In this document: positions 817 through 32,418 of the stretch, in pieces
Layout: every line of letters begins with the position of its first letter
How positions within the stretch are numbered: position 1 is the first letter of the stretch
Source of the DNA: Parcubacteria group bacterium GW2011_GWA2_48_9
GTDB taxonomy: Bacteria > Patescibacteriota > Patescibacteriia > UBA10025
Length of the DNA: 32,600 nt
Assembly: GCA_001003705.1 (NCBI GenBank)
Contig: LCPQ01000016.1
Coordinates: 1 to 32,600 of the forward strand
Direction of reading: 5' to 3'
Program-made: the position numbers and the translations under genes
The notes under the pieces: generated by a model
Database searches by the model: none
Seen by the model: only the letters and a program-made list of their open reading frames with translations
Told to the model about the DNA's origin: nothing

Positions 817-1203
817 TTACTTTGCTGCTACCTCTTTCAAGCGTTTTCCGTAATCACGCAGGTAGTAGAGTTTTGCGCGGCGTACTTTTATCTGCTTGAG
901 TATCTCAACCTTTTTAATGATCGGGGAATGCAGTGGGAAAATGCGTTCGACGCCTATTCCGTTGGAAATCTTCCGAACTGTAAATGTAGCACCCTGTGAG
1001 GTTCCACCGGATAAGGCAATGACCGTACCCTCGTATATTTGTATGCGCATTTTATCACCAGCTGGGACCAACTGATGTACACGCACAACCATTCCTGCGC
1101 GAAGCGCTGGTATCGGTTCACGAGCTATTGCTTGCGCATCAGGCTTTTGGGAGGCCTCTTTTGATGCATCACCTACGGCTTTTTTCTTGGATTTTTCTGC
1201 CAT
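817..1203 (-). CDS. rplS: Large ribosomal subunit protein bL19
   Basis: Structural protein of the 50S subunit, located near the interface with the small subunit. The 128-residue product has an about 30-residue lysine- and alanine-rich N-terminal extension, then the bL19 fold: [20 protein letters not shown], then [11 protein letters not shown], and the family signature [11 protein letters not shown] at about residues 83-93, ending with the basic [11 protein letters not shown] segment. Length is close to the family norm (about 115) plus the extension. The ATG at 1203 follows a promoter whose -35 box lies inside a repeat element (see 1236-1263). In many bacteria rplS is last in the rpsP-rimM-trmD-rplS group; here it is about 28 kb away from trmD in the window. 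Confidence 0.97.
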
Positions 1204-1235: not shown

Positions 1236-1263
1236 AGTATAACGAAATACAGCGCGGTGTCAA
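1236..1263 (-). promoter_or_regulatory. rplS promoter, -35 box supplied by the repeat element
   Basis: On the minus strand TTGACA (1258-1263) and TATACT (1236-1241) are spaced by 16 nt, ahead of the rplS ATG at 1203. The TTGACA is the outermost part of the terminal inverted repeat CGGGGTTGAC of the element at 1259-1369, so the repeat provides the -35 box. Confidence 0.65.
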
Positions 1264-1369
1264 CCCCGTTAGAAAATTTACCGAAGCTCTCGATTACGAT
1301 TAAACGCTTCTCTACCTAGATACATTAGGGAGTATGATAGACTAGAGAAAATTTTCTAGCGGGGTTGAC
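1259..1369. repeat. 111-bp element with terminal inverted repeats (copy A)
   Basis: The left end at 1259-1279 begins GTCAACCCCGTTAGAAAATT and pairs with the right end at 1349-1369 at 20 of 21 positions, the exception being a G-T pair. Inside are two further small stems: GAAGC/GCTTC and CCTA/TAGG, around the conserved block TTCTCTACCTAGATAC. A second copy lies at 28541-28652 in the same orientation, with different bases in the first inner stem that still pair (AAGTGTT/AACACTT), so structure is kept. The left end provides the rplS -35 box; the right end supplies the last codons and stop of the pseudouridine synthase gene. It has no coding capacity and resembles a miniature inverted-repeat element. 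Confidence 0.8.
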
Positions 1370-27996: not shown

Positions 27997-28024
27997 TCAA
28001 CCCCGAGGGGAATCGAGGGGTTGA
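27997..28024. repeat. 28-bp mini form of the GTCAACCCC element
   Basis: TCAACCCC (27997-28004) and GGGGTTGA (28017-28024) form perfect 8-bp inverted repeats around 12 nt. The ends match those of the elements at 1259-1369 and 28541-28652, but the interior is missing. The right end continues into TTGACA, the -35 box of the rpsP promoter. Confidence 0.55.
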
Positions 28025-28049
28025 CACCGATCCCCAGAACGATTAAGAT
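28021..28049 (+). promoter_or_regulatory. rpsP promoter with repeat-end -35 box
   Basis: TTGACA (28021-28026), 17-nt spacer, TAAGAT (28044-28049). Transcription would start about 5 nt before ATG 28062. The sequence GGGGTTGACACCG is shared with the rplS promoter. Confidence 0.65.
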
Positions 28050-28540: not shown

Positions 28541-28652
28541 TTGACCCCGTTAGGAAAATTTACCAAAGTGTTCGACTGCAATTAAACACTTCTCTACCTA
28601 GATACGCTAGAAGGTACGGGCTGATTTCAGAAAATTTGCTAACGGGGTTGAC
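28541..28652. repeat. 112-bp element with terminal inverted repeats (copy B)
   Basis: The left end begins TTGACCCCGTTAG and the right end finishes CTAACGGGGTTGAC; both carry an AAATTT block just inside. The inner hairpin AAGTGTT/AACACTT (around 28566-28591) replaces GAAGC/GCTTC of copy A with paired changes, and TTCTCTACCTAGATAC is identical to copy A. It lies between rpsP and khpA. The outward TTGACA at 28647-28652 may be used as a -35 box for khpA, with TATGTT 18 nt further. Confidence 0.8.
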
Positions 28653-28684
28653 ATTCGTTTTGGCGATATGGTATGTTTCTCACC

Positions 28685-28792: not shown

Positions 28793-29152
28793 ATGGCAAA
28801 GACAGAAACTGACCAGGAGTTTGTAGAGTACGTAGTCAGGGCGTTGGTTGACAACCCAGATGATGTGAAATCAGATCGGACGGTTGATGAAATGGGCGTT
28901 CTCATTACGCTCAAAGTCAACCCACAGGACCTCGGCCAAGTGATTGGTCGACAGGGACAGACTGCCAAGTCTCTCCGCACACTTCTCCGCGTTGTCGGCG
29001 CAAAGAACCACGCTCGGGTCAATCTCAAGATCTACGAGCCAGAAGGCTATCAAAAGAGCCGCGGCCCGAGAATGGATAGACCAGCGGGTAGACCGATGGA
29101 CAGACCAATCGCTGAAGAAGATACTTCAGCAGTTGATGACTTGAAACTCTAG
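28793..29152 (+). CDS. khpA: KH-domain RNA-binding protein KhpA
   Basis: Small single-KH-domain protein that usually works with KhpB in RNA regulation and cell-wall growth control. The KH core is in residues 1-80, with the GXXG-type loop VIGRQGQTAKSLRTLL at about 50-65. A 35-residue tail rich in Arg, Pro, Met and Asp (RPAGRPMDRP) is an extension of the usual 75-80 residue protein. Its place between rpsP and trmD is the common bacterial order (rpsP-khpA-rimM-trmD); rimM is absent here. Confidence 0.93.
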   Translation: MAKTETDQEFVEYVVRALVDNPDDVKSDRTVDEMGVLITLKVNPQDLGQVIGRQGQTAKSLRTLLRVVGAKNHARVNLKIYEPEGYQKSRGPRMDRPAGRPMDRPIAEEDTSAVDDLKL

Positions 29153-32132: not shown

Positions 32133-32136
32133 TGGT

Positions 32137-32158
32137 GGGCGCGTAGCTCAGGTGGTTA
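32137..32158 (+). pseudogene. 5' fragment of tRNA-Ile (GAT)
   Basis: GGGCGCGTAGCTCAGGTGGT plus TA is identical to the first 22 bases of the intact tRNA-Ile at 32235. After this the sequence switches to TCCCGCACC and a foreign hairpin. The preceding ACTGGT is complementary to the ACCAGT that follows the 3' fragment at 32415-32420, so the two fragments once shared one acceptor stem. Confidence 0.75.
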
Positions 32159-32197
32159 TCCCGCACCATGTCACTTCGTTCCAGGTACGGGACAAGG

Positions 32198-32217
32198 AGC
32201 GCTTACTGTGCTTTTTT
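32198..32217 (+). terminator. Terminator-like hairpin before the intact tRNA-Ile
   Basis: AGCGC-TTACT-GTGCT followed by six T. If functional it would stop rRNA transcripts before the intact tRNA-Ile. Confidence 0.5.
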
Positions 32218-32234
32218 AACAGAATTCCCTTGGT

Positions 32235-32311
32235 GGGCGCGTAGCTCAGGTGGTTAGAGCGCGTCACTGATAATGACGAGGTCGGAGGTTCGAGTCCTCC
32301 CGCGCCCACCA
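32235..32311 (+). tRNA. tRNA-Ile (anticodon GAT), intact copy
   Basis: Complete cloverleaf: acceptor GGGCGCG/CGCGCCC, D arm GCTCAGGTGGTTAGAGC, anticodon stem CGTCA/TGACG around CTGATAA (anticodon GAT), T arm GGAGG-TTCGAGT-CCTCC, discriminator A and encoded CCA. The acceptor pairing continues outward: ATTCCCTTGGT before the gene is complementary to ACCAAGGGAAT after it, giving an 18-bp perfect stem (32224-32241 with 32301-32318). This tRNA is typical of 16S-23S spacers. Confidence 0.96.
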
Positions 32312-32369
32312 AGGGAATGAAAGCGCGCCTGCCCCGCTAACTTCGAGCGATAGTGAGAAGTTGTGCGGG

Positions 32370-32418
32370 GTCACTGATAATGACGAGGTCGGAGGTTCGA
32401 GTCCTCCCGCGCCCACCA
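32370..32418 (+). pseudogene. 3' fragment of tRNA-Ile (GAT)
   Basis: These 49 bases, from GTCACTGATAATGACGAGG to the final CCA, are identical to 32263-32311 of the intact gene. The D arm and the 5' acceptor strand are absent. It is the counterpart of the fragment at 32137-32158. Confidence 0.8.

Follow-up and report, generated by a model that had tools for sequence, protein, structure and literature searches.

The Correia elements (CREE/NEMIS) of Neisseria are repeats of 100-150 bp, and the GIY-YIG nuclease family is known from repair, restriction and homing. To our knowledge, no kind of transposon has as its sole gene a GIY-YIG nuclease. The repeats described here, two of which lie in a window of 32,600 bp (the whole stretch of DNA that was analysed), resemble the Correia elements, which are MITEs with promoters at their ends, in size, in their terminal inverted repeats, in their intergenic position upstream of genes and in adjoining promoters (PMC10969869). 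They differ in that Correia elements carry their own promoter sequences, whereas here the -35 box appears to be a pre-existing sequence duplicated as the target, and neither the arms nor the duplication are like those of Correia elements. With other prokaryotic MITEs, such as MITEAba12 (PMC6382973), they share short length, lack of autonomy, inverted termini, target duplications and multiple copies; however, a search for PF01609 turned up no DDE-type insertion sequence from which they could derive, the parent appearing instead to be an element with a GIY-YIG gene, and insertion is at a -35 box. REPINs and their RAYTs (PMC3116915) are comparable as inverted doublets of ~100 bp, and compact single palindromes are found in one genome, G167, but the present repeats have 4-bp target duplications, and RAYT-type Y1 is absent from several element-rich genomes. 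Casposons (PMC4046053) likewise are a kind of transposon that takes its name from an unusual integrase not belonging to the classical families; the elements reported here, in contrast, are tiny, have 4-bp duplications and hold a GIY-YIG gene only, with no Cas1 or polymerase. The open literature searched, which does not extend to preprints and closed journals, gave no account of a GIY-YIG element that has terminal repeats and duplications. The newness of the system rests on this kind of element, and the repeats of the window taken without it would be a MITE.

The repeat family and its adjoining promoters

The genome to which the window belongs (G000; 1.26 Mb in 44 contigs) holds ~18 copies of a palindromic repeat of ~103 bp with the core CCCCGTTAGAAAAT...ATTTTCTAACGGGG, as found with a model built from the core alone, and the repeat adjoins TTGACA with a -10 box ~17 nt further on. 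The copies agree in their arms (9-16 bp) and mostly differ in their interiors. Nearly all of them have an end that faces a gene; the genes faced, named by reading their translations and by homology search, include rplS, khpA-trmD, secE-nusG-rplK, tuf, rpmE and infB, as well as genes for a response regulator, a pyruvate-phosphate-dikinase-like protein, a bactofilin-like protein and others. The two copies in the window are listed in Table 1 together with their promoters, both of which stand as the earlier note had described them. Copy A has inverted arms reading CCCCGTTAG at one end of its core and CTAGCGGGG at the other, and relative to the promoter the interior of copy B is inverted with respect to that of copy A.

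Table 1. Positions of the repeats, promoter boxes and genes in the window
Feature	Position	Strand	Remark
rplS (ribosomal protein L19)	817..1203	-	start at 1203; gene behind copy A promoter
rplS -10 box TATACT	1241-1236	-	16-nt spacer from -35
rplS -35 box TTGACA	1263-1258	-	TTGA part taken as gene-side target duplication
Element copy A, core	1264..1364	-	101 bp; upstream of rplS; model match E 8e-12
rpsP promoter GGGGTTGACA-N17-TAAGAT	28017..28049	+	no element arms
rpsP -35 box TTGACA	28021-28026	+	17 nt from -10
rpsP -10 box TAAGAT	28044-28049	+	
Left TTGA of putative target duplication, copy B	28541..28544	+	4 bp
Element copy B, core	28545..28647	+	103 bp
khpA -35 box TTGACA	28648..28653	+	putative right duplication copy TTGA plus flank CA
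khpA -10 box TATGTT	28672..28677	+	18-nt spacer
khpA (KH-domain protein)	28793..29152	+	start at 28793; trmD comes next

The earlier note had counted three element ends in the window, the third being a 'mini form' of the element at rpsP. The rpsP promoter boxes and their spacing are as that note gave them, but the GTTAG/CTAAC arms are absent from the site and the covariance model of the element gives no match there; all that the site has in common with the element is the 10-mer GGGGTTGACA, which also occurs at other, unrelated places. The mini form was thus rejected, the window has two elements, and the rpsP promoter is treated, on its sequence, as an ordinary one. Elsewhere in the window, a tRNA-Ile gene is partly duplicated (32133-32418), the intact gene at 32235-32311 lying between direct partial copies of its 5′ part (at 32133 and 32231) and of its 3′ part (at 32263 and 32370).

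The arrangement at rplS and khpA recurs throughout the family. A -10 box at 16-18 nt was found at 17 of 21 gene-facing ends, three of which are from the nearest relative, a sister genus (G001), and at 0 of the 21 opposite ends; the spacer is exactly 17 nt at 11 of the gene-facing ends. As background, 423 kb of G000 show such a -10 box for 61 of 467 intergenic TTGA sites and for 22 of 53 TTGACA sites, and against the intergenic TTGA background the enrichment has p ~8e-8 with a free choice between the two ends of each copy. The expectation that element ends would be enriched at gene promoters genome-wide was therefore borne out, and the ends adjoin real-looking promoters of highly expressed genes. 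Two copies, G000:C22:31609 (L042) and the one at rpmE of G001 (L381), have the promoter-side arm alone and appear to have lost the far one.

Flanking duplications and promoters without the repeat

In an alignment of the copies, a direct TTGA often stands before the left arm (TTGA-CCCCG...CGGGG-TTGACA), outside the repeat core. Since a longer palindrome would need the inverted TCAA at this position, the -35 box is not part of the repeat. The right TTGA is present in nearly all G000 copies and the left one in about half (p 0.015, a contrast that is partly built in because copies were oriented by the promoter), so that direct TTGA on both sides is still visible in about half of them; in copy C10c both flanks read TTGC. 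Against this reading, the left flank is not a direct TTGA in C16A (rplS), C4a and C4b, and on the far side of copy A (1365-1368) TTGA is read on the plus strand, i.e., inverted, without a clean direct duplication. Judged by these flanks, TTGA is a 4-bp target-site duplication. Public genomes were scanned with the pattern CCCCGTTAGAAA-N66..96-TTTCTAACGGGG, which gave more than 100 loci among the matches listed, in Patescibacteria, Syntrophaceae and other Deltaproteobacteria, Omnitrophota, Nitrospirae, Sedimentisphaerales and more. Among these listed matches, 67 of 119 distinct related copies, from many phyla, have an exact 4-bp direct repeat, and the duplicated tetramers (TTTA, TAAA, TTCA, TTGA, TGAA, TCAA and rarer ones) are mostly not TTGA. 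Direct repeats of such varied tetramers indicate that the element moves and that its target is roughly TNNA. Copy interiors, moreover, match one another in both orientations. A length of ~103 bp, lack of coding capacity, terminal inverted repeats, ~18 copies and a duplication of fixed length (4 bp) are all features of a MITE. The compact palindromes of G167 (L238, L295-L306, L310) are 28 bp long (CCCCGTTAGAAATAAATTTCTAACGGGG) and numerous; their flanks resemble one another (GCGGATTTAC / GTAGACGCGGAT), so that the minimal element sits within a larger repeat.

Empty sites in relatives, a further feature of MITEs, were found at four promoters. The khpA and secE-nusG promoters are without the element in all five genomes G001-G005, the rplS promoter in three (G002, G004 and G005) and the infB promoter in one (G001). 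Every one of these promoters has TTGAC followed by a -10 box after 17-18 nt, an arrangement that 1-10% of trials with shuffled upstream regions reproduce. At secE, the end of the upstream gene, the box and a GC-rich stretch downstream align with G000, minus the element and one TTGA, and at infB the -35 (TTGACG) and -10 (TACACTATA) are identical between G001 and G000, so that these two empty sites match on both flanks of the insertion point. Given that relatives have the same promoters without the repeat, the promoter is older than the repeat.

The repeats are thus very probably MITEs that landed in the TTGA of -35 boxes already in place; their mobility would come from a single-domain GIY-YIG nuclease. 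The arms, the direct duplications, the empty sites, the one-sided -10 boxes and the interiors in either orientation can be read from the sequences themselves. The element would enter the TTGA of an existing -35 box and duplicate its four bases; the gene-side TTGA, together with the untouched CA and the -10 box downstream, would then rebuild the -35 box and keep the promoter working, and the only change would be a shift of the upstream region by ~107 bp. A selfish element could in this way enter promoters of essential genes (rplS, tuf, infB, secE-nusG) harmlessly.

GIY-YIG elements and the source of mobility

In G037, the same arms enclose a single open frame, which encodes a GIY-YIG nuclease; this copy is ~285 bp long and has TATG on both sides. 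The GIY-YIG domain of full-length elements matches PF01541 with E 2e-14 (G037) and 2e-16, and an alignment shows the Y..Y, Y.G, R and E motifs in common. In addition, C28 of G037 was tried as an autonomous copy and rejected, being in reality separate elements around rsmH and not one long element. Of the 381 genomes of the class, 300 have GIY-YIG homologs, and 70 loci (L311-L380) from about 60 of its genomes were sampled. The termini of the MITE (CCCCGTTAGAAA) recur on GIY-YIG elements in other genomes of the class; most of the nearest homologs are bounded by arms identical or close to these (CCCCGTTAGAAA, TCCCGTTAGAGAAA). Among more distant homologs the arms differ (CCCGGTAGTGAAACTT, CCCGCCTAAATTTTTG, CCCTGTTAAATAATT), at a nearly equal element length of 277-311 bp. 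A terminal inverted-repeat score of at least 14 was reached by 26 of the 70 loci vs 0 of 400 random positions; 35 loci reached a score of 11 or more, and at 20 of these the 4-bp duplication is exact. The elements hold no gene other than that of the nuclease (~85 aa), whose frame often ends within an arm or on the junction. They fall into several arm families and have duplications such as TATG, TGAA, TGAG, ATGA and TAAA. Often they lie precisely on a start codon, and in several cases the start codon of the next gene is rebuilt by the duplication. A search gives six GIY-YIG homologs for G000. In the third of the genome that was read (423 kb), three of them have no flanking arms and no full-length partner element was found.

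Since elements of ~280 bp elsewhere have the terminal repeats of the MITE around such a gene, and have 4-bp duplications, we infer that a single-domain GIY-YIG nuclease confers mobility; the GIY-YIG elements would be autonomous and moved by their own nuclease, the activity of which is predicted. With moderate confidence, we propose a new class of transposon that is common in Patescibacteria. Its autonomous copies would have 277-311 bp, a GIY-YIG gene alone, terminal inverted repeats and 4-bp duplications, and would insert at functional tetramers (TTGA of -35 boxes, TATG of start codons, TAAA/TGAA of stop codons) that the duplication regenerates; the repeats of the window would be its non-autonomous form. 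It is possible, though rather unlikely, that the GIY-YIG gene is a passenger and that the elements owe their mobility to a conventional transposase, now lost or outside the families searched, as the search covered PF01609 and Y1, and GIY-YIG catalysis is predicted. This is opposed by the wide occurrence of the homologs in the class and by the small size of the GIY-YIG elements, with nothing else inside. It is likewise opposed by the transposase searches themselves, neither candidate being supported as mobilizer: DDE_Tnp_1 (PF01609) was missing in 9 of 11 element-bearing genomes, with no arms around it in the two that have it, and RAYT-type Y1 transposase (PF01797) was missing in 4 of 10 element-rich genomes, with no Y1 gene enclosed by arms. 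The GIY-YIG elements point to an unrecognised kind of transposon with one nuclease gene of ~85 aa across a large bacterial class, with non-autonomous copies in many other phyla, and, if this is true, they are among the smallest autonomous transposons known. If the GIY-YIG protein is the mobility enzyme, the nuclease family would have a further role and would offer a very small insertion tool to try, and the many GIY-YIG genes of CPR genomes would then be explained.

The role of the repeat at promoters and stop codons

Elements are found in both genera of the family at rplS and, as a one-armed remnant, at rpmE. The interiors of the rplS elements of G000 and G001 do not match, so that both may go back to one old insertion or the same box may have been hit twice. 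Their presence in both genera could also reflect retention for function, and together with the promoter-side remnants at C22 and at rpmE of G001 it speaks for a partial co-option after insertion, in which the promoter-side arm (AAATTTT, then CTAACGGGG) was kept as an upstream element. We regard such co-option as doubtful, given that the rplS interiors differ between the genera and that a comparison of arm mismatches in 14 gave 1.2 on the promoter side vs 1.3 on the far side (p 0.59). No selection on the promoter-side arm was seen in this comparison, and equal decay on both sides gives co-option no support.

The gene-side TTGACA with its -10 box, in 17 of 21 cases, would also fit a portable promoter, which the earlier note had suggested from the ends in the window, i.e., a repeat that brings an outward -35 box and makes new promoters on landing, like Correia elements. 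That proposal is now very improbable. The promoter hexamers do not lie inside the element, TTGA being by its flanks a duplicate of the target; the opposite ends have no -10 box at 16-18 nt; and promoters without the repeat exist at the same genes in relatives. In other lineages, copies with other duplications (TTTA, TAAA, TTCA) have no -35 box at their ends and lack a promoter. In other phyla, among the matches listed, a -10 box was present at 9 of 14 TTGA ends vs 8 of 124 TTTA/TAAA/TTCA/TCAA ends (p 9e-7).

A regulated promoter module was considered first, since the -10 spacing is so constant; it was rejected on account of the direct duplications, the mixed interior orientation and the empty sites. 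These same observations, the orthologous promoters being empty of the element in G002-G005 (related families), make it hardly credible that the repeat is a regulon operator with two inverted protein-binding sites ~85 bp apart, looped by a regulator upstream of translation-gene promoters. The arms are indeed conserved while the interiors are not, and translation genes (rplS, khpA, secE-nusG, tuf, rpmE, infB) are frequent among the targets, but both arms decay equally and other lineages have their elements at stop codons. Integron attC sites were rejected by eye.

The duplications in G000 are nearly all TTGA, although TTGA makes up only about a third of intergenic TTTA/TTCA/TTGA sites (p 2e-6), and we infer that the elements of this lineage prefer TTGAC as their target. 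Because an intergenic TTGACA is often a promoter, surviving insertions would lie in promoters; insertions in -35 boxes would survive because the duplication rebuilds the box, and those in genes would be lost. The promoter pattern may stem from either targeting or survival. The same logic holds, on the sequences, for stop codons elsewhere. In other lineages (L117-L234), elements of ~100 bp are found at gene stop codons: at 13 ends the stop codon lies exactly within the duplication (TAAA, TGAA, TAGA), and at 13 further ends the stop is a TAG inside the arm.
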